Source: Chitinophaga pinensis (lineage in GTDB: Bacteria; Bacteroidota; Bacteroidia; B-17B0; Aurantibacillaceae). Taken from it: a stretch of DNA of 64,000 nt. Below, in pieces: positions 6,784 through 34,313 of this stretch. The notes below the pieces were generated by a model, which worked only from the letters and a program-made list of their open reading frames with translations, was not told where the DNA came from and did no database searches. Numbering within the stretch: position 1 is the stretch's first letter; every line of letters starts with the position of its first letter. The translations under genes were made by a program, and so were the position numbers. The stretch is taken from NCBI GenBank assembly GCA_945860225.1, contig CAMAPT010000006.1:62001-126000 (forward strand), given 5' to 3'.

Positions 6784-7464
6784 TTAACGTTCAGCAAACG
6801 CAATACTTAGTACACTAATTTTAATTCCGTCGATTGTATTTAGTACACGACAGCAAGCTTCGATGGTAGCTCCGGTTGTAATCACATCATCTACCAAAAT
6901 AATGTGCTTTTCGCTTAATTCATGGGTCTGAGATAATTCAAAAACATCCTCTACATTTTCCCAGCGTTCATATTTACTTTTTTTAGTTTGGGTTGTCGTA
7001 AATTCTCGTCTTAGTAAAAAAGTATTCGCACACGGAACATCAAGTACTTGCGCTATACCTTTTGCAAATTCTTCACTTTGATTATATCCCCGCATTTTCT
7101 TTTTTTTATCATGTAGCGGAACCGGGATGATGTAATCCGCATTTTTAATTAATTCGTGTTGTAATAAATCGTTGGCAAACCATTTACCAAGTAAAACGGC
7201 TAATTCTTTATTTCCTTTATATTTTATAGCATGTAATAATTTTTGTACTCTTCCTTTCTTTTGAAATATGTAAAAACTATAAGCGCAGACTAATTGAACT
7301 CTGCCATAAAAAATTTGCTCTACTGGATTTTTCGCACTTAAAAGAGGAAGTTTGGGCATATTCAAATAACAATCGTTACACACTTCATCTTCATGCTTGT
7401 AGAGTGAATTGCCACATGCTATGCAATTTCGCGGATAAAAAAGAGCTAAAAAATCGTTTAACAT
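6784..7464 (-). CDS. comF: ComF family phosphoribosyltransferase-like protein
   Basis: The 226-residue protein has a four-Cys zinc-finger region at the N-terminus (CIACGNSLYKHEDEVCNDC) and a type I PRTase fold at the C-terminus with the PRPP-binding motif HIILVDDVITTGATIE. The pattern IIPVPLHDKKKKMRGYNQSEEFAKGIA is typical of ComF/GntX. In naturally competent bacteria ComF is needed for uptake or handling of transforming DNA. Many Bacteroidota carry it without a proven competence system, so the role here is inferred. It starts one base after the stop of the lamin-tail gene, which suggests co-transcription. Confidence 0.9.
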   Translation of the reverse strand: MLNDFLALFYPRNCIACGNSLYKHEDEVCNDCYLNMPKLPLLSAKNPVEQIFYGRVQLVCAYSFYIFQKKGRVQKLLHAIKYKGNKELAVLLGKWFANDLLQHELIKNADYIIPVPLHDKKKKMRGYNQSEEFAKGIAQVLDVPCANTFLLRREFTTTQTKKSKYERWENVEDVFELSQTHELSEKHIILVDDVITTGATIEACCRVLNTIDGIKISVLSIAFAER

Positions 7465-7465
7465 A

Positions 7466-10400
7466 TTATAATTTGCTGGCGAGCGTACAGCCTAATTTAT
7501 GAGTTCTTACTTTTCCTGAGAAATCAAATACTTCTATGTAAATTACATAGATTCCTATCGATGCTTTTTCAAGTCCATCGGTAATTCCATCCCAACTAAA
7601 AGTTCCTTGTTGAGTTAATGGTTGATTTTTAATGAGATGTCTGACCAATCTTCCATCGCTATCATAAACATATACATTAGCAATATTGGTTGTTTCTGTT
7701 AATTCATAACTGATATTCAATACATCATAATAACCATCATTATCGGGCGAAAATAAAGGGTTTGAAATATAAAACCCACTTCCCATTTCTACTTTTAAAT
7801 ATTGAGAATTTTGATAAGACGGCGTTGCAAACCTCGCCGTTTCAGAGGCACTATTCCAATTTGTACGGTCGTTTGTTCTTCTATTAAAATCGATTCGTTC
7901 TAAAGAAACTCCTTTTTTACTCACTAGTAAAGGAAAATGAAATGCCTCGTCATAAATAAAATTATCTATAATTTTCGAGTGTTTATCACTAATCGTTACT
8001 ACATCCCTATCGGTGTTCATCGCTGGCAAGTCTATCATATCCACAAATTCGTTTGGATTAAGCGAAAAATAGTGTTGTTTAATACTATGCTGATTTTCGC
8101 TTAAAACCACATAATGCCCGGGGAATAATAAATATCCATCATGAGTAATAATTTGAGTATCAAATAGTGCTCCTGAAATCGTATCCATAGAACCGATTCG
8201 TAAATCTTTTAAATCAATGGTCTTATTGCTTTTATTATATAACTCTACAAAATCAACACAGCCCGAGTTTGGGTCAAAAAGAATTTCATTAATAACGATG
8301 TCGTTTTCTATTGGCGCTTGTGGTACAGCAAACGGTAAGCTCGAATTTATTAATGGATTACCCGAACAATCACATACATCACTTAATACAGAACAATGAT
8401 AAACCACATTGGCTAATAAGCCTAATCGAAATTTTAATTTTACCTTTTTGAATTGTGGCGAAACTGGTTGAACGTAAATTGGTTCTCCAAAACCATTATC
8501 TAATAAATAATTTTTTGGATTCGATAACCTTACACTATTTAATGATTCTGTAAAAGTCAATAAAATAGTGTCATTTAATAGGATATCTATTTTTTGTAAT
8601 TGAGGGAATACTCTATCAAGATTTGAAGCCGATACGGAATTTATTTTTCCGGGAGTACCTCCTAGTTTATCCTCACTAGCCCGCCAATTTCTAATTTCGC
8701 CACACGGATTACCAGCATCTATTTGCTCTAAACTAAATCCGCCTTCTTCTTTATCTGAGCTTTGATACCAATCTTTAGAATAAGTAAGCGAATGTATCAT
8801 TACCCCATTCGTATCTCTTAAAGTCAATGTTGTGCCATCATTGATAAGGGATGGAAACCCGGTAATTTCATACACTTTAATACCACAAGTTTTTAAAAAT
8901 TTTTCTGCATTTCCAGCATTGGTAAATACCATCAGGCTATCTGCTTTTATAATAACATCCGGCAATTTTTTGGATGAAGAAAGCGTCGATAAAGTCCAAT
9001 TTTTCAAATGAATATCAAAAGATGTTCTGTTTTTCAATTCTACAAATTCAACATCGGGCAAACCAATCGATGGATCCGGATCTGCCATCAATTCATTAAA
9101 CACCACATCATAAGGTTTATGATGGTAATAAGAAAACCGACTTTGATTCAAATGAGGCAAATTACCATAACAATCTGTTATCCCCGAAATCATCAACGTA
9201 TAATTTGTTCCACTTTTCAAAGGTGTTGGTAATACTAAAGTAACATCCGTTGAAGAAGTTAAAAAAACGGAAACAGGCGCGCCAATAAATGGAAAAATTG
9301 AATAATTTGTAAGATTGGTTAACTGCTGTTTTGAAAAAACATCTTCTATTTGAACTAAAATATGTAAAGAATCTATCACTGATACTTTTGTTATTCTTGG
9401 TCCAATGGTATCTGCCACTAGTGAATAAACAGAGTTTATAAATCCTGGTGTCCCACCATCTGCATCATTAGAGGCAATCCAATTATCGGATAGTAAACAT
9501 GTAACAACCTGATTCGGATTAATCTGTTCTAAACTATAACCTCCCTCTTTTTTGATTGAATTTTTATACCATGTATCGAAGTAACTTAAGCTATCGATGA
9601 TAGCATTGGACGACGTTTTTAAAAATAAATGGTCGCTTGTATTATTGAGGGAAGGAAAAGAACTAACGCCTATTCGGTTCAAATATCCTAATTCAGTGAA
9701 TTGCGCTGTATCAGCCATCGGACAAATGATGACATACTGATTGGGGAGTAAAGTATAATGACCAATAGTTGCTGTAGAATACCCATCGCTTAATTTTAGT
9801 CCTTTCAAATTATACATCGTTAAACTATTATTGTATAACTCTAGATATTCAGTGTTGGTTAGATTAACTATCGGAGAAGGGTCGGCATATATTTCATTAA
9901 AAACGATGTCTTTATAATTCGGAATTGGTTCAACAAAATAAATAAAACTCACGGCAGAAGAAGGCATCGTATTTCCAACAATGTCATTCATCTGACTCAC
10001 TTGCAGTGTATAGGTTCCATTTACTAAAGGTGTTGACACAACTAAATGAACTAATTTCAAATTGATTCCGTCGCGGGTTGCCGATAAAGGATTTCCAATG
10101 CCCGAAATATTATAATTAGTTACATTTTGTGAGCTGTTTAAATCAATGGGTTCATCGAATAAAACATCCACAGAATCTGAGGAAATAGAAAAAGCACTTA
10201 TCAGTTTTGGTGGCTGACTATCGATGATAATCGGAGTGACCAAAATATTATCAAACTGGTGTTTCTGAAAAAAAGAGGCCGTGCTTTGTTTGATTAAAAA
10301 CCCAAAATAGTTGGAGCTTACATGAGAGCCATCTGTGGCCGAACCCTCCATTATATAGCTATTTCCTGTTCCTGTTAAATCTCGTTGCAATGTCCAAACA

Positions 10401-10885
10401 TTGGAAACATCATGAGTTACTTTAATTTTAAGGGTATGATTTGACGCATTTAGTATACCGGAAGTTCCAATTACCAGACTGTTTGTAGCAATGCCTGTTC
10501 GCTTATACAAACTAATATTATCCTGAGTGCTTCCAATTCGAACAAAATAACCATTGATTACAGTGGATTTTAAATTAAACGTATCACTTGCTAAATATAC
10601 ATCCACATAATTAGCACTCGACGGATTGAATTGCAAATTCACGTCAAACTCCCACTCACAATTACTAACCAACGTATTTGTAGTAGAACCATAAAACGAT
10701 GAATTAGTGGCAGTATTAGTCGATTTTAATTGATTATTAACGATTTGAAAATCGTTGGGGCTACTAATAATCCAAGTAGGATTTGACGTCAAGTCTCCAT
10801 CATCAAACTTTTCATTAATTTGTGCCGAAGCAAAAATCACCCACATATTAAAAAGAAGAAACAAAAAGGAACGAGAATTTTTCAT
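7466..10885 (-). CDS. large exported protein with three lamin-tail domains and Ig-like linkers
   Basis: The product is about 1139 residues. The chosen ATG at 10885 gives MKNSRSFLFLLFNMWVIFASAQ, a clean signal peptide; a GTG three codons upstream is less likely. An N-terminal jelly-roll-like region is followed by repeated pairs of an Ig-like domain of the Big_5 type (PPKLISAFSISSDSVDVLFD) and a lamin-tail domain. The lamin-tail domains begin near residues 328 (DIVFNEIYADPSP), 597 (DVVFNELMADPDPS) and 863 (DIVINEILFDPNS). The last 90 residues (FSPDNDGYYDVLNISYEL ... GIYVIYIEVFD) form a FlgD/CHU_C-like C-terminal module often seen on type IX secretion cargo. It is therefore probably a surface or secreted adhesive or scaffold protein; no catalytic domain is visible. 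Confidence 0.85.
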   Translation of the reverse strand: MKNSRSFLFLLFNMWVIFASAQINEKFDDGDLTSNPTWIISSPNDFQIVNNQLKSTNTATNSSFYGSTTNTLVSNCEWEFDVNLQFNPSSANYVDVYLASDTFNLKSTVINGYFVRIGSTQDNISLYKRTGIATNSLVIGTSGILNASNHTLKIKVTHDVSNVWTLQRDLTGTGNSYIMEGSATDGSHVSSNYFGFLIKQSTASFFQKHQFDNILVTPIIIDSQPPKLISAFSISSDSVDVLFDEPIDLNSSQNVTNYNISGIGNPLSATRDGINLKLVHLVVSTPLVNGTYTLQVSQMNDIVGNTMPSSAVSFIYFVEPIPNYKDIVFNEIYADPSPIVNLTNTEYLELYNNSLTMYNLKGLKLSDGYSTATIGHYTLLPNQYVIICPMADTAQFTELGYLNRIGVSSFPSLNNTSDHLFLKTSSNAIIDSLSYFDTWYKNSIKKEGGYSLEQINPNQVVTCLLSDNWIASNDADGGTPGFINSVYSLVADTIGPRITKVSVIDSLHILVQIEDVFSKQQLTNLTNYSIFPFIGAPVSVFLTSSTDVTLVLPTPLKSGTNYTLMISGITDCYGNLPHLNQSRFSYYHHKPYDVVFNELMADPDPSIGLPDVEFVELKNRTSFDIHLKNWTLSTLSSSKKLPDVIIKADSLMVFTNAGNAEKFLKTCGIKVYEITGFPSLINDGTTLTLRDTNGVMIHSLTYSKDWYQSSDKEEGGFSLEQIDAGNPCGEIRNWRASEDKLGGTPGKINSVSASNLDRVFPQLQKIDILLNDTILLTFTESLNSVRLSNPKNYLLDNGFGEPIYVQPVSPQFKKVKLKFRLGLLANVVYHCSVLSDVCDCSGNPLINSSLPFAVPQAPIENDIVINEILFDPNSGCVDFVELYNKSNKTIDLKDLRIGSMDTISGALFDTQIITHDGYLLFPGHYVVLSENQHSIKQHYFSLNPNEFVDMIDLPAMNTDRDVVTISDKHSKIIDNFIYDEAFHFPLLVSKKGVSLERIDFNRRTNDRTNWNSASETARFATPSYQNSQYLKVEMGSGFYISNPLFSPDNDGYYDVLNISYELTETTNIANVYVYDSDGRLVRHLIKNQPLTQQGTFSWDGITDGLEKASIGIYVIYIEVFDFSGKVRTHKLGCTLASKL

Positions 10886-11136
10886 ACTTAGCACAACAAA
10901 CTCAATGTCATATTACTCTATTATATCTATAGATGATATATATTTATTTTATACTTAAAATAGTTCTATTCAAAAGAATACATCTATCAAATAGATGCAA
11001 AAAACTAAAATAAGAATTTTTTTCATAGCAAATTAATTGGCAATTTTACGTCGATTAAATTATCCATGTTTAATATCTGTCATCGAAAAAATTCATGGAG
11101 ACTCCAAATGACAAATAAATAATAATAGAGCTACGT

Positions 11137-12129
11137 ATGAAAATTGCAGTTGTAGGTGCCACAGGTTTAGTAGGAACAAAAATGTTGGAAGTTTTAGCAG
11201 AAAGAAATTTTCCAATAACCGATTTAATTCCAGTTGCTTCAGAAAAATCAGTAGGAAAGGAAATTGTATTTAAAGGTAAAAGCTACAAAGTACATTCTAT
11301 GCTTGATGCCATAGCTTCTAAACCACACATCGCATTATTTTCAGCGGGTGGGGGCACTTCGCTTGAATGGGCTCCTAAATTTGCCGAAGCAGGCATCACT
11401 GTGATTGATAATTCGAGCGCTTGGCGAATGGACCAATCTAAAAAATTAGTTGTTCCTGAAATCAATGCACACCAACTCACTGCGGAAGATCGGATTATTG
11501 CTAATCCAAATTGTTCTACTATTCAAATGGTCGTAGCATTAAACCCTCTACATCAAAAATACAAAATCAAACGTGTCATTGTTTCTACCTATCAATCGGT
11601 TACCGGAACTGGGGTCAAAGCTGTTGCCCAACTATTAAATGAACGCTCGGGGATTGAAGGAGAAATGGCCTATAAATATAAAATAGACTTAAATGTCATT
11701 CCTCAAATTGATGTGTTTACAGATAATGGTTACACAAAAGAGGAAATGAAGATGGTCAATGAAACAAAAAAAATAATTGGAGATGATTCTATTCGGGTGA
11801 CAGCCACTACGGTACGTATCCCTGTAATGGGTGGACACAGTGAGAGTGTGAATGTTGAATTTGAAAATGAATTTGATATCAAAGATATTTTCAAAATTTT
11901 GAGCGAAACTAAAGGTGTTGTTTTACAAGACGATATCAGTAATCAAATTTATCCAATGCCCATCAATGCGCACAACAAAGATGAAGTTTTTGTAGGAAGA
12001 ATCCGAAGAGATGAATCTCAGGCTAATGCCTTAAATATGTGGATTGTATCTGACAACTTACGCAAAGGAGCTGCAACCAACGCCGTTCAAATTGCAGAAT
12101 ATTTAGTTGCAGCTAAATTGGTGAAATAA
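11137..12129 (+). CDS. asd: aspartate-semialdehyde dehydrogenase
   Basis: Asd reduces aspartyl phosphate to the semialdehyde that feeds diaminopimelate, lysine, methionine and threonine synthesis. The 330 residues include the NADP-binding N-terminus (MKIAVVGATGLVGTKML), the catalytic Cys126 in IANPNCSTIQMV, and GGHSESVNVEFE near the substrate-binding end. It is a single gene about 240 bases from the divergent lamin-tail gene; I see no T-box or lysine riboswitch in that gap. It converges on the patatin gene. Confidence 0.95.
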   Translation: MKIAVVGATGLVGTKMLEVLAERNFPITDLIPVASEKSVGKEIVFKGKSYKVHSMLDAIASKPHIALFSAGGGTSLEWAPKFAEAGITVIDNSSAWRMDQSKKLVVPEINAHQLTAEDRIIANPNCSTIQMVVALNPLHQKYKIKRVIVSTYQSVTGTGVKAVAQLLNERSGIEGEMAYKYKIDLNVIPQIDVFTDNGYTKEEMKMVNETKKIIGDDSIRVTATTVRIPVMGGHSESVNVEFENEFDIKDIFKILSETKGVVLQDDISNQIYPMPINAHNKDEVFVGRIRRDESQANALNMWIVSDNLRKGAATNAVQIAEYLVAAKLVK

Positions 12130-20507: not shown

Positions 20508-20879
20508 ATGAAAAAAGATAAAATCATATTTTGGACAGCGACGATCATCATCGCTTTATTTGAAGGAGTTATGCCGGCATTGACTTCACAAACTGAATTG
20601 GCAAAAGAAGGTGTGAGACATTTGGGTTATCCTGAATATTTTGGAAATGCTTTGGTGATCTTTAAAATTTTAGGTGTATTAACATTAGTGATCGTGCCAA
20701 TACCAAAACGAATAAAAGAATGGGCATATGCAGGTTTTGCATTTGATTTTATTTTTGCAACAATTAGTCAAGGAGCTGTTGATGGTGTAAATGGGCAAAC
20801 ATTCTTTCCTTTAATTGTACTTGGAATTTTATCCGTCTCATACATATACTATCATAAAGTATATTCAAAGCACATGTAA
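20508..20879 (+). CDS. DoxX-like family membrane protein
   Basis: The 123-residue protein has four predicted helices (IIFWTATIIIALFEGVMPAL, FGNALVIFKILGVLTLVIVPI, WAYAGFAFDFIFATISQGAV, LIVLGILSVSYIYYH) and the HLGYPEYF-type motif of the DoxX-like family (PF13564). Members are small cytoplasmic-membrane proteins, some linked to redox or thiol stress and often under TetR or MarR control. The strong palindrome over its promoter agrees with that kind of regulation, but no regulator gene lies beside it. Confidence 0.85.
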   Translation: MKKDKIIFWTATIIIALFEGVMPALTSQTELAKEGVRHLGYPEYFGNALVIFKILGVLTLVIVPIPKRIKEWAYAGFAFDFIFATISQGAVDGVNGQTFFPLIVLGILSVSYIYYHKVYSKHM

Positions 20880-20959
20880 CATACATGTCGTTTAAGGCAT
20901 ACACACAATATAAAACTAAAAAAGAAAAAATATCTGCCGGATTTATTAATACCTTCAAA

Positions 20960-21094
20960 TTAAGGTGCCATATTAATCAGTTCATTGGTTTTCATCAGCA
21001 AATCCATAAATAAAATTTTAGGATTTGCGTTAAGCTCTAAATGATAAAAAGCAGAATTGAATTCTACGAATAAGTGTCCGTAACTATGTTGTTC
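20960..21094 (-). pseudogene. duplicated 3' remnant of holB
   Basis: This stretch repeats the last 45 or so codons of the complete holB gene at 22691-22825 with scattered changes. It reads EFNSAFYHLELNANPK and then ILFMDLLMKTNELINMAP before a stop (20960-20962), against EFNSAFYHVERNANPK and LINMIP in the intact gene. Upstream the frame meets TGA within ten codons of the similarity boundary, so this is not a gene. Many differences keep the protein sequence, so the copy was probably part of a functional gene in its history. The rest of 20880-21333 has no gene, only hairpins listed separately. Confidence 0.85.
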
Positions 21095-21157
21095 TATGAG
21101 GATAATAACTCATTAATTAGTAATTTCAACAAATATACTGTCAGCTGACAAACCTTT

Positions 21158-21197
21158 TGCGGTGAAAAAAGCGTATTTTTACCGCATAATTTGCGGT
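21158..21197. repeat. two mutually exclusive hairpins sharing one arm
   Basis: TGCGGT occurs at 21158-21163 and 21192-21197, and its complement ACCGCA occurs once between them (21181-21186). The central arm can pair with either copy; the left pairing extends through A5/T5 with one bulged base. Such an arrangement can act as a switch, but no function is known here. Confidence 0.45.
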
Positions 21198-21278
21198 GGT
21201 AATTACAATCATAGTAGGCTAACGCTGTTCCAAATTAATACTGTAACTACTTCACCAATTATAGAGTCTTAAAATGTC

Positions 21279-21318
21279 AATTTCAAAAACTGCTTGTATA
21301 AAAGCAATTTTTGAAATT
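21279..21318 (-). terminator. long hairpin after the OmpA-like gene
   Basis: The arms 21279-21295 and 21302-21318 match in 16 of 17 pairs (AATTTCAAAAACTGCTT against its near complement) with a 6-base loop, 15 bases past the stop codon. A true T run does not follow on the minus strand, so termination efficiency is uncertain. Confidence 0.5.
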
Positions 21319-21333
21319 TTGGAACGTAAATTA

Positions 21334-22530
21334 TCAAAATTCCAGTACCATAATTTCTACTCTTCTGTTTTGTTCTTGTTGCTCTGCGGTAGCTCTTGGT
21401 AATTCAAATAGCATTTCATGATCTCCTCTACCATCAATTTCTATCCTTTTTCCATCTATACCTCTATCAACCAAATATTTTTTAATTGTCGTTGCTCTTC
21501 CTTTCGTAAAATCAATAGTGGCTTTCTCACTTGGATTGTCCCTACCATTTGAATGTCCAATAATTACTATTTTAAGGCAGGGATTTTTATTTAATAATTT
21601 TACCAAATTATTCAAGGCAGGAATTGCTTGAGGTAAATACTGAACAGAACCCGGAATAAAATTGATAGAGCCAACAGAATTTTTTCTTCCTTTTTTAAGT
21701 TTCGGTAAAACTGTTTTTAATTCTTTTAATTGAAGGGTATCGGATAAAGTGATGGATTTAGTATAATTAAAATTGCTATCGTTATAAAAATTCAAATTAT
21801 AAGATTGATTTTTAATTAGTGCTGCCTTAAAATGATATGAGCCATCGTTTTTACTTTGTTCTACTGATATTGTATCCCCTTTTTGATTAGTCAGGGCTAT
21901 TTCTGCTTTTATAGGTTTATTATTTTCATCGGTAATTATACCATCAAAATTCACTCGCTGGCAAATTTCTAACTCAAGTATGTGACCATCCCCATTTTTA
22001 TAAACATTATCTAATACTAAATAATAAATCTCGCCTATTTTTACAGTAATGGCCTCACAGTATGCTTCGCCAATACCATATTTAACTAATTTTTGATTTG
22101 AACTAAAGTTTAATCCTGTTTTACCTTGAAGTTCTTTTTTACCCCTGCTGACACAAGCTCTTAAAGGGCTTATTTTGTGTTTTTGTAAACTGTCACAAAA
22201 GTTAGTTTTACCCGATTTAAATAGCATAAAATCATAATCATCGTCGGCTTTAGTTGGAATTACGTGAAATGTTAATTCCCCTGAATCATTCATTACTAAT
22301 TTGTACCAAGCAGTATTGTGTTCTTTTTCAAAGGCATAAATGGTATTTTGTTTAGTTGTACTAATTTCTTGTAACTCACCAAATCCTTTGGGAATAATGG
22401 TTTTCCCATAAATTGTTTTATTATTAACTACCAATTCTTTAGCGTGAGAACAGTCACAAAAAACAGTATCTAATTTTTTACGTTGAGAGAATAAAGGAAC
22501 GGATATGAGTAAAAATAAAACTAATCGCAT
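21334..22530 (-). CDS. OmpA-like C-terminal domain protein
   Basis: The 398-residue protein has a signal peptide (MRLVLFLLISVPLFSQ), a beta-rich middle with a carboxypeptidase-regulatory-like segment (FDGIITDENNKPIKAEIALTN ... DGSYHFKA), and a C-terminal OmpA domain. The last shows IVIIGHSNGRDNP, KGRATTIKKYLVDRGIDGKRIEIDGRG and QNRRVEIMVLEF, the peptidoglycan-binding signature. It is predicted to be periplasmic or anchored to the outer membrane and to bind the cell wall. It lies between holB and the holB 3' remnant, so the whole segment 21095-22690 looks inserted or duplicated. Confidence 0.9.
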   Translation of the reverse strand: MRLVLFLLISVPLFSQRKKLDTVFCDCSHAKELVVNNKTIYGKTIIPKGFGELQEISTTKQNTIYAFEKEHNTAWYKLVMNDSGELTFHVIPTKADDDYDFMLFKSGKTNFCDSLQKHKISPLRACVSRGKKELQGKTGLNFSSNQKLVKYGIGEAYCEAITVKIGEIYYLVLDNVYKNGDGHILELEICQRVNFDGIITDENNKPIKAEIALTNQKGDTISVEQSKNDGSYHFKAALIKNQSYNLNFYNDSNFNYTKSITLSDTLQLKELKTVLPKLKKGRKNSVGSINFIPGSVQYLPQAIPALNNLVKLLNKNPCLKIVIIGHSNGRDNPSEKATIDFTKGRATTIKKYLVDRGIDGKRIEIDGRGDHEMLFELPRATAEQQEQNRRVEIMVLEF

Positions 22531-22690
22531 AATTTATATAACGTACATGAGTCTGAAAAGTAACAAAAACATCATTTTAGATGAGGGCTGATAGAAAAAT
22601 AGCGCCTTTTTTAGGGTCTTTTTATATGTAAGCTAAAAATCAGTTCAATCCTACTTAATGCTATAATAGTAAGGCTATTAGCATTAAAAA

Positions 22691-23815
22691 TTAAGGTATC
22701 ATATTAATCAATTCGTTGGTTTTCATCAGCAAATCCATAAATAAAATTTTAGGATTTGCGTTACGCTCTACATGATAAAAAGCCGAATTAAATTCTTCTA
22801 ACAAGCGCTCATAATTACGTTGATGAACAAAGCGCGAAAATTTGGTAATGAATTCTTTTTCTTCTCCCGAATGCCTTACTAAATCTACGCTTCCAAAATT
22901 AAACATCAAGCAATCTCTAAATATTTCGAGGCCATATTGCAAAAATTGTTTTTGCTGCTCTCTTCCAGTTCGGGCATTGTCATCTATCCAAGATACAGCC
23001 TTTATAGCATCAAATTTTAGAGCAATCAACATAAATGTTCTGAATTTTTGAAGATAGGCCGTTCCCCCATCTAAATGTTGCAATAATAATTGTGCATCCC
23101 TATAACTCCCATCACTCAATAAAGCCACTTGTTTTGCATGTGGCACCTGACAATCAAATTCATTGACCAAGCCTTTTACAATGTCTTCAATTTCTATACG
23201 CTGAAACGTAATTTGTTGCACACGCGAAATAATTGTACTCAGTAATTGATCCGGATGGTTACAAACTAACAGAAACAGGGTTTGTTCAGGTGGTTCTTCT
23301 AATATTTTTAGAAGTTTATTAGCCGAAGAAGCGTTCATTTTTTCCGGCTGCCATATCACCATAATTTTATACCCTCCTTCATAACTGGTATAGGATAATT
23401 TTTTCAGAATATCATTTGCCTCATCGGCGGGAATAAGTGGTTGCTTATTTTCGGCATCCAAACTCCCAAACCAATCCTGAATGGTTAAATAAGGCGTTTC
23501 TAAAAACATATTTCTAAATTCAGGCAATAAATCATTACTGGTTCGCACCGATTTGCTAATTGGAATCGGGAATACTAAATGCAAATCGGGATGGATGAGT
23601 TTGCCGGTTTTTAAGCATGAAGGACAATTGCCACAAGCATCTTCGGGTTGTTTGTTTTCGCAAAACAAATACTGAATAAATGCCATGGCGGTAGGTAAAT
23701 TGCCACTACCTTCGGGCCCGGTAAACATTAAAGCATGAGGCACACGCCCATCTTGCAGCATGTGCAAAAGTCTGTTTTTTACAGGTGTTTGTCCAACTAT
23801 GTTTTTAAAAAGCAC
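22691..23815 (-). CDS. holB: DNA polymerase III delta' subunit
   Basis: This clamp-loader subunit of 374 residues pairs with DnaX. The N-terminal AAA+ fold shows a degenerate P-loop (TGPEGSGNLPTAMAF, Lys replaced by Asn), expected for delta', which does not hydrolyse ATP. A Cys cluster (CENKQPEDACGNCPSC), an SRV sensor motif (TIISRVQQITF) and the stretch LLKILEEPPEQTLFLLVCN support the call. The start is a GTG at 23815. A 9-bp hairpin (22655-22687) follows the stop. Its 3' end is duplicated at 20960-21094. Confidence 0.92.
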   Translation of the reverse strand: MLFKNIVGQTPVKNRLLHMLQDGRVPHALMFTGPEGSGNLPTAMAFIQYLFCENKQPEDACGNCPSCLKTGKLIHPDLHLVFPIPISKSVRTSNDLLPEFRNMFLETPYLTIQDWFGSLDAENKQPLIPADEANDILKKLSYTSYEGGYKIMVIWQPEKMNASSANKLLKILEEPPEQTLFLLVCNHPDQLLSTIISRVQQITFQRIEIEDIVKGLVNEFDCQVPHAKQVALLSDGSYRDAQLLLQHLDGGTAYLQKFRTFMLIALKFDAIKAVSWIDDNARTGREQQKQFLQYGLEIFRDCLMFNFGSVDLVRHSGEEKEFITKFSRFVHQRNYERLLEEFNSAFYHVERNANPKILFMDLLMKTNELINMIP

Positions 23816-24094: not shown

Positions 24095-24502
24095 CTACCA
24101 CAATTTTACCTTATATTTTTCAGCCATTTTTTGCAATTGTTCCTCACTTACAGCATGGCTGTTTGAATTTCCGTGATAATTTTCAACGGTGGCAACAAAT
24201 ACAATATAACCATAAACTGCTGCCATTTTAAAATAAGGTTCAATTTCCCAATCCATCGTAAAGGTATTATGAACAAAAATTTTTAAATGCCCTTGCTTCA
24301 TAGCGTTTTCAGTACGCTCCTGACATTGTTTATATGCCAAATGATTATCCTGAAACCTAAAATGATAGGCTCCGGTGTTTTCATCCGTAAAGTAATCATC
24401 TACTGAAAACGTAGGATAGGTCTTATTTTCTGAAAATAAAAAGGCTAATGTTGTTTTACCACTGCCCGGTAAGCCTCTTAGCAAAATTAGGGAGGGTGTC
24501 AT
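24095..24502 (-). CDS. P-loop kinase-like ATP-binding protein
   Basis: The 135-residue protein begins with a P-loop (LILLRGLPGSGKTTLA) and continues with FSVDDYFTD and YKQCQERTENAMKQGHLKIFVHNTF, the pattern of small AAA_33 / NEDD4-binding-protein-2-like nucleotide kinases. The short length fits the stand-alone members of that group. Substrate is unknown; relatives include polynucleotide-kinase-like and zeta-toxin-like folds, but nothing nearby points to a toxin pair. It lies 36 bases after asnS on the same strand and may be co-transcribed with it. Confidence 0.75.
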   Translation of the reverse strand: MTPSLILLRGLPGSGKTTLAFLFSENKTYPTFSVDDYFTDENTGAYHFRFQDNHLAYKQCQERTENAMKQGHLKIFVHNTFTMDWEIEPYFKMAAVYGYIVFVATVENYHGNSNSHAVSEEQLQKMAEKYKVKLW

Positions 24503-24538: not shown

Positions 24539-25996
24539 TTAAAATTCGCAATTGTTAGGTGTTCTTGGAAACGCAATCACGTCACGAATATTCGTCATAC
24601 CGGTTACGAACAATACCAAACGTTCAAATCCAAGACCAAATCCAGAGTGAGGGCAAGCGCCAAAACGACGAGTATCCAAATACCAATTCAAATCTTCAGC
24701 AGGAATGTGCATCTCTGCCATGCGCGTTTCCAGTTTTTCTAACCGCTCTTCACGTTGCGAACCACCTATAATTTCTCCAATACCCGGAAATAAAATATCC
24801 ATAGCTCTTACTGTTTTTCCATCGTCATTTTGACGCATGTAAAAGGCCTTAATGTCTTTAGGATAATCTGTTAAAATAACCGGTTTTTTGAAATGTTTTT
24901 CTACCAAATAGCGTTCGTGCTCACTTTGTAAATCGGCACCCCAACCTTCAATCAAATACTGAAATTTCTTTTTCTTGTTATGGTTAGATTCTTTTAAAAT
25001 TTCTATGGCTTCGGTATAAGTTATTTTGGCAAATTCATTACTTAAACAGAAATTTAATTTTTCCAATAAACTCAGCTCGCTTCTTTCTGTTTGTGGTTTT
25101 TGTTTTTCTTCATCTATTAAACGTTGCGATAAAAACTCAATATCTTCTTTGTTTTTTTCAAGAGCATAGTTAATCACATACTTTAGCATTTCTTCTGCCA
25201 AAGCCATGTTATCATTTAAATCAAAAAAAGCCATTTCAGGTTCTATCATCCAAAATTCGGCTAAATGACGGGTTGTATTAGAGTTCTCCGCACGAAAAGT
25301 AGGGCCAAATGTATAAACATCGCTAAATGCCATCGCTCCTAATTCACCCTCCAACTGACCTGAAACCGTCAAATTAGTCGCTTTACCAAAAAAATCTTGC
25401 TTATAATCAATGTCTCCCTGCTCATTTAATGGGGGATTTTTCAAATCCAAAGTCGATACACGAAACATCTCCCCTGCTCCTTCTGCATCACTACTGGTAA
25501 TAATAGGGGTATGCAAATACACAAAACCTTTGTCATTAAAAAATTTGTGAATGGCGTATGCTAAAGTATGTCTTACTCTAAAAACCGCACCAAACGTATT
25601 TGTACGAAAACGTAGATGAGCTATTTCTCTTAAAAATTCAAGAGAATGAGCTTTTGGTTGCAAAGGATATGAATTAGGTTTAGTAACGTCTGACTCGGCA
25701 TCTCCATAAATTTCTATTTCAGAAACAATGATTTCTACCGTTTGTCCTTTACCCTGAGAAGGAACCAATGTGCCGGTTACGCCAACACAAGCGCCGGGGG
25801 TAATGCGTTTTAAGGTTTCCGGATTTGTGGTTTCAAAATTTACAACTGCCTGAATATTATTAATACAAGACCCATCATTAATGGCGATAAAGGAATTATT
25901 ACGAAATGTACGAACCCATCCTTTTACGTTGATGGTTTGATTGATGAAAGCTCCTTTTAAAACCTCCTTTATTTTGGTGCGTGTTGTCATAGTCAT
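24539..25996 (-). CDS. asnS: asparaginyl-tRNA synthetase
   Basis: AsnRS charges tRNA-Asn. The 485 residues carry an N-terminal OB-fold anticodon-binding domain ([23 protein letters not shown]) and a class II catalytic core with motif 2 ([22 protein letters not shown]) and motif 3 ([15 protein letters not shown]). The AENSNTTRH form of motif 2 separates it from AspRS. Two ATG codons two residues apart (25996 and 25990) are both possible starts. A direct AsnRS suggests that tRNA-Asn is not made through GatCAB transamidation. Confidence 0.95.
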
Positions 25997-26097
25997 TAAT
26001 TTTTTGAAGTTGTGAAGTTAGAAAAAAAATGAATTTTTAACGTTAATATTTGCCTTCTTATTCGAAAGCATTTTAAGGATTGCAAAACCCCTTGTTT

Positions 26098-26130
26098 TTG
26101 CATAAAACCTCGCATTAAATTATATCTTTG
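26098..26130 (+). promoter_or_regulatory. candidate promoter of the Nfu gene
   Basis: TATCTTTG (26123-26130) is a full TAnnTTTG match and TTG (26098-26100, inside TTTTTG) lies 22 bases upstream. The ATG at 26146 follows after 15 bases. Confidence 0.5.
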
Positions 26131-26145
26131 ACAAAAAATATTTCG

Positions 26146-26769
26146 ATGGAAACAAGCATTCCTTATATCATCTACATTGAAGCAACTCCAAATCCTTCTT
26201 CAATGAAGTTTGTTGCTAATAAAGTATTAATTAACGAAAAAGGCGCAAGTGCCGAATATAAAAATGTTTCTGAAACCTTAACGGCCCCCATAGCCAAACA
26301 ATTGTTTCAATTTCCTTTTGTAAAGACTGTTTTTATATCAGCAAATTACATTACCATCACCAAAACAGATGCGGTAGATTGGGATGATATTACCCTTGAA
26401 TTAAGAGCGTTTTTAACAGATTACTTAAATGCCGGAAACTTAATTGTAACAGCACTTCCAAAACAAGAAGTAGCTGTAGATAATACGTTTACCGAAAAAA
26501 CAATCATCAGCACCCAACACGTGGCGGCAAAAGATGAAGTAGAAGCTAAAATTATTGAGGTTCTTGATCAGTATATTCGTCCGGCAGTAGAGCAAGATGG
26601 AGGTTTAATTACTTTCAAGGAATTAAAAGATGGCATAGTTACTGTTCAAATGCGTGGGGCTTGCAGTGGTTGTCCAAGTAGCACGATGACTTTAAAAGCT
26701 GGTATTGAAGCCTTACTAAAAAGACTGTTACCAGATGCCGTAAAAGAAGTAGTCAGCGAAGCCGTATAA
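26146..26769 (+). CDS. Nfu-type iron-sulfur scaffold/carrier protein
   Basis: The 207-residue protein has an Nfu N-terminal domain (YIIYIEATPNPSSMKFVANK ... FPFVKTVFISANYITI) and a C-terminal NifU domain with the Fe-S ligating motif GACSGCPSSTMTLK. Such proteins carry assembled [4Fe-4S] clusters to target enzymes. I use the ATG at 26146; a TTG six codons earlier overlaps the -7 promoter element and is unlikely. The gene precedes the M3 peptidase gene by 31 bases on the same strand. Confidence 0.92.
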   Translation: METSIPYIIYIEATPNPSSMKFVANKVLINEKGASAEYKNVSETLTAPIAKQLFQFPFVKTVFISANYITITKTDAVDWDDITLELRAFLTDYLNAGNLIVTALPKQEVAVDNTFTEKTIISTQHVAAKDEVEAKIIEVLDQYIRPAVEQDGGLITFKELKDGIVTVQMRGACSGCPSSTMTLKAGIEALLKRLLPDAVKEVVSEAV

Positions 26770-33334: not shown

Positions 33335-33533
33335 TTGGAACAAGCCGTGTTTAAGGTTGTCAAAAAAGTCGGTTACCTTACTTTGTTTTCGCAATAACTA
33401 AGCCACACAGCTGTTAGAGATTGGTACAGATTTACGTTACAATCAAGAATCACATAGGTATTCAAGCTCCGATATGATAAAAAGCTACACCTTTCAAGCA
33501 TCAATAACATATACAAATACGTTCTCTGTTTGA
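33335..33533 (+). pseudogene. decayed 3' end of a tyrosine recombinase gene
   Basis: Fragments of the conserved C-terminal catalytic part are readable in two frames. First EQAVFKVVKKVG, then after a one-base shift KKSVTLLCFRNN, an in-frame TAA where a recombinase has HSY, then ATQLLEIGTDLRYNQES, then HRYSSSDMIKSYTF and a TGA at 33531. Intact relatives read like KKSVTLHTLRHSYATHLLE, GTDLRYIQELLGHSSSKT. The stop, the frameshift, the lost LLG and loss of the catalytic RHxxR Arg/His context show it is dead. Only about 200 bases remain; the N-terminal half has been replaced by the SPOR gene side. The remainder of 33534-33676 holds repeats but no gene. Confidence 0.8.
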
Positions 33534-33570
33534 TGATTTGTAAAAATTGTTTGTATTTTGGCTTTATGCA

Positions 33571-33631
33571 ATAAACCTGCGCTTATACAACCATTTTAAT
33601 TGTTTTTAGGAAGGTTTATAGCGTGTATAAG
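33571..33631. repeat. interleaved inverted repeats upstream of the orphan gene
   Basis: ATAAACCT (33571-33578) is complementary to AGGTTTAT (33612-33619), and CTTATACA (33582-33589) is complementary to TGTATAAG (33624-33631). The order A, B, A', B' would form a pseudoknot instead of nested stems. It lies between the dead recombinase and the orphan gene, where a recombination site could be expected. Confidence 0.5.
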
Positions 33632-33676
33632 TAAGCTATAGGCTAGCGTAAAAAAACAAACATTGACAGCATTTGT

Positions 33677-34096: not shown

Positions 34097-34220
34097 ATAA
34101 CCTATTCTAAACAGAACGCTAGCGAATAACAGCGCCTTAGCACTAGGCTATTATGTCACACTTCGAATAAATATTTACTACTTTTGAAATAAATCTCGCT
34201 TCGAGTTTTGGGTGTTTTGC
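34097..34220. other. attC-like segment A downstream of the orphan gene
   Basis: The segment runs from ATAACCTAT (34097-34105) to GGGTGTTTTGC (34210-34220) and includes ACGCTAGCG and AACAGCGCCTTAGC. A second segment in the window (45697-45776) begins and ends with almost the same words. This is suggestive of a shared recombination site, but I have not proved a foldable attC. The gap 34064-34313 has no gene. Confidence 0.35.
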
Positions 34221-34313
34221 CTCGGTATCGCCCATCGCTAAAGGCACGAAAACGTTTTGTATCAATTCTTCAAAGCCTAGTGTATTTATTTTTCGTTTTG
34301 TCAAAAAAACAGA

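Follow-up and report, generated by a model that had tools for sequence, protein, structure and literature searches.

The window analysed here, a stretch of 64,000 nt from a genome of an uncultured member of the Bacteroidota, contains an intact holB gene encoding the delta-prime subunit of DNA polymerase III (minus strand, positions 22691–23815, 374 aa; PF13177, E 4.2e-44). In the reading direction of the minus strand, holB is followed by a complete gene for an OmpA-domain protein (21334–22530, 398 aa; PF00691, E 5.7e-11) and, downstream of the latter, by a degraded duplicate of the holB tail on the same strand (20957–21091), which is referred to here as the scrap. The scrap comprises about codons 330–374 of holB together with the stop codon and the 3 nt that follow; it has no start codon, is preceded by in-frame stops, and carries non-silent changes. 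Its counterpart is the functional tail of the intact gene (22688–22822), which forms the right-hand member of the direct repeat and also ends 3 nt past the stop codon. The locus lies well inside a contig of 134 kb (C6).

Two novel joints mark the arrangement. One is located at the left end of the 3' flank of the OmpA gene (21092–21333), where this flank meets the scrap, and the other at the right end of the stretch that separates the stop codon of holB from the OmpA gene (22531–22687); neither region has another convincing copy in the genome. The sequence to the left of the scrap (20880–20956), which adjoins a DoxX-like gene (20508–20879), does not resemble what follows the stop codon of holB. 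A near-perfect inverted repeat with 20-nt arms (90% identity) follows the stop codon of the OmpA gene (21279–21318) and is probably its terminator.

The two tails align over 135 nt with 87% identity at a spacing of 1731 nt (blastn E 1e-40), a similarity that, judged by its length and identity, is far beyond chance. The initial annotation of this region, which described a duplication of the 3' end of holB (about 135 bases, about 85% identity) repeated 1.7 kb away in the same orientation, cut off upstream by a stop and separated from the original by a complete OmpA-like gene, is borne out in all these respects. The genome contains only one full-length copy of holB, which reaches up to 85% full-length identity to its relatives in the genus, about 85% being the value for the closest holB among the 19 related genomes compared. 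The only other specific match of holB in the genome is the scrap; the remaining matches are weak and concern a paralogous clamp-loader-type gene that is present in nearly all genomes compared. Within the flanks examined, none of 79 other holB loci on genome contigs has a repeat of the tail. In the 134-kb contig and a 924-kb sample of the genome, the scrap is the sole intergenic partial copy of a single-copy housekeeping gene. The second-copy arrangement at holB is a real relic of a rearrangement, unusual at this gene but known in kind. A general habit of this genome to leave scraps of gene tails was considered and rejected, as the 924-kb sample contains no second case of this kind.

The other intergenic matches in the 924 kb lie at contig ends or belong to recombinase fragments, to a dispersed repeat about 100 nt long, or to other multi-copy sequences. 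The dispersed repeat occurs on roughly a dozen of the sampled contigs, including a site on contig C6 to the left of the window (L165:15277–15372), and is locally repeated in tandem at intervals of about 89 nt. A decayed C-terminal fragment of a tyrosine recombinase (43% identity over 42 aa, one internal stop) is located in the window at 33366–33491; an intact relative of 467 aa is encoded on contig C33 (315–1718), and another C-terminal fragment is present on contig C32 (17972–18094). Just to the right of the fragment in the window lies an intergenic repeat of about 147 nt (33515–33660) with 80% identity to C34:1004–1150, and a further intergenic repeat (34126–34276) matches C38:10111–10260 with 87.5% identity over 152 nt.

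Judged from its substitutions, the left-hand copy is a decaying pseudogene scrap that resembles unconstrained DNA. Among the 16 codons that differ between the two tails, 10 change the amino acid and six are silent. The scrap has lost the arginine of the motif ERNANP, a residue kept in every relative aligned, which indicates that it is not maintained by selection. Both results contradict the initial annotation, which had described the changes as mostly silent and had suggested that the tail may have evolved under selection for some time. The mismatches are unevenly distributed: the first 30 nt contain 11 and the remaining 105 nt eight (Fisher p 0.0003). A later conversion of the 3' part of the scrap, with holB as donor, may account for this clustering.

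The duplication probably took place within this lineage, because both tails share the derived motif DLLMK, whereas nearly all relatives in the genus have DLIMK. An origin of the tail from a related strain, as proposed in the same annotation, is difficult to reconcile with a lineage-specific motif in both tails unless that strain was very close. The sequence evidence supports an origin of the duplication in this lineage.

The evidence does not support an arrival of the OmpA gene from elsewhere. Orthologs with 66–72% identity are present at full length in 10 relatives and in weaker or broken form in three more. Protein comparisons place this genome on a long branch, and they do so alike for holB, OmpA, hemC, and hemB; the OmpA gene evolves faster across the whole genus. 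Its GC3 of 0.20 is on the low side of the window mean (0.28, sd 0.04) but within 2 sd. By its distribution and divergence, the gene is a native, vertically inherited ortholog common to the genus. A recent horizontal gain is rejected, because the ortholog occurs in most of the genus and its divergence follows the long branch of the genome; the same findings speak against the earlier idea that a segment carrying the OmpA gene arrived at the locus and restored holB.

Comparison of gene neighborhoods demonstrates that holB and the OmpA gene have both relocated. In 13 of 14 loci of the genus, nadD is the direct neighbor of holB or lies close to it, and in eight of the 14, sdhB/A/C come no more than a few genes after holB. 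Here, nadD (C15:33340) and sdhB (C15:55152) share contig C15 at a distance of 21 kb, without holB. The orthologs of the OmpA gene are situated near two genes encoding proteins of 414 aa and 915 aa in 11 relatives, and roughly 12–24 kb from hemB in several relatives. In the present genome, the 414-aa and 915-aa partners lie about 34 kb to the left of the OmpA gene, and the distance to hemB is 2 kb, with the two genes oriented differently to each other than in most relatives. Each gene has left its old neighborhood, and neither was simply inserted at the ancestral place of the other. The OmpA gene and the repeat, whose presence or absence as a unit had been suggested as a check, are absent as a unit from all relatives examined. 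Likewise, the relatives provide no clean empty site, and none can be defined because both genes are located elsewhere in them.

The surroundings of the locus are also rearranged. Two blocks of contig C6, one comprising the genes at 73137, 69466, and 68784 (window 6784–12129) and the other a nifU-like gene (88128) and asnS (86539; window 24539–26769), are contiguous in two relatives. Here, their order is exchanged without inversion, with the orientation of both blocks kept, and the locus with holB, the OmpA gene, and the scrap lies between them. Such a swap fits a duplication, because duplication followed by alternate loss predicts this pattern. In some relatives, asnS is also close to the gene for an AAA-domain protein (24095–24502), although in a different relative orientation.

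The most economical account of the order holB, OmpA gene, scrap is a tandem duplication followed by the loss of alternate copies, an explanation to which we give an even chance. We infer that an ancestor of this lineage had the two genes in the minus-strand order OmpA gene, holB. Tandem duplication of the stretch comprising both, with one end just after the stop codon of holB, would have produced the order OmpA–holB–OmpA–holB. Subsequent loss of the first OmpA gene and of all of the second holB except its tail would have left the present arrangement, in which roughly 45 terminal codons of the lost holB persist as a decaying remnant. The explanation is more economical than its competitors because a single breakpoint at the stop codon suffices, whereas insertion or repair requires either two breakpoints at this position or an attachment site. 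Some observations count against it. No remnants of an additional OmpA gene or of the other parts of the lost holB were found in the 134-kb contig and the 924-kb sample; the uneven divergence along the repeat requires gene conversion or chance; and the block swap requires a separate event, larger than the one that would have formed the scrap.

Alternatively, replication-based repair or the repair of a break may have joined the left flank, a holB tail, the OmpA gene, and a whole holB at once, so that the scrap would represent a short templated insertion instead of what is left of a complete gene. Such a course of events would agree with the relocation of both genes to adjacent positions and with edges of the scrap beyond which there is no homology on either side. 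It is nevertheless rather unlikely, as both holB-derived pieces would have to start 3 nt past the stop codon by coincidence, and no microhomology has been established outside the repeat itself.

Still less probably, the locus is what remains of an integrative element that had its attachment site in the 3' end of holB, replaced the tail, and subsequently lost its integrase and nearly everything else. The model for such an event is prophage e14, whose integration in icd of Escherichia coli leaves a 163-bp duplicate of icd (PMC6379469). The geometry is indeed that of e14 and icd: a direct repeat of the 3' end of the gene (135 nt, including the stop codon and the next 3 nt) flanks an insert, with the intact gene on one side, upstream, and cargo between the copies. 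Unlike in e14, however, the copies are only about 1.6 kb apart (about 15 kb in e14), there is no integrase or phage gene between them (the only open reading frame of 80 aa or more is the OmpA gene), the cargo is a chromosomal gene native to the genus and inherited vertically, holB itself has changed its place, and none of the 79 other holB loci serves as a site. In addition, the two tails are least similar at the edge that should contain the crossover core. Two further candidates were rejected. A recurrent attachment site at holB is incompatible with the lack of a tail repeat at the 79 other loci, and a phage or plasmid origin lacks any meaningful match: in viral contigs, neither holB nor its tail nor the OmpA gene has a relative, plasmids have no match for the tail, and phages have only a 44-nt match in a single phage. 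The earlier interpretation of arrival and restoration, whose underlying observation holds in outline, survives only in weakened form. It is very improbable that a minimal, integrase-less unit that swaps gene tails inserted the OmpA gene and replaced the end of holB, in which case the tail in use would be the newcomer and the scrap the original. An assembly artefact or chance similarity is hardly credible, even though the genome is an assembly of 47 contigs, considering that a match of 135 nt at 87% identity has an E of about 1e-40, that the copies differ at too many sites for an assembler to derive one from the other, and that the locus is far from the contig ends.

The mechanism by which gene order changes in bacteria is still debated. 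With tandem duplication and alternate loss as the preferred explanation, the locus is possibly a fossil of gene reordering as described in the SNAP hypothesis (Brandis and Hughes 2020), for which pseudogenes with matching active copies have been named as potential traces of former duplications (PMC7055797). If so, an essential replication gene would have the remains of its lost copy alongside, which is the type of relic named as a test of SNAP; as a single locus from a single genome of an uncultured member of the Bacteroidota, it would be an example, not proof. It differs from SNAP in that no intermediate is seen and the scrap stands alone in 924 kb. In other respects, the locus resembles what SNAP, or tandem duplication with random loss (TDRL), would leave behind (PMC7055797): a pseudogene remnant, apparently formed in the same lineage, is located beside the matching active copy of an essential gene, and the gene order near the locus has changed without inversion.
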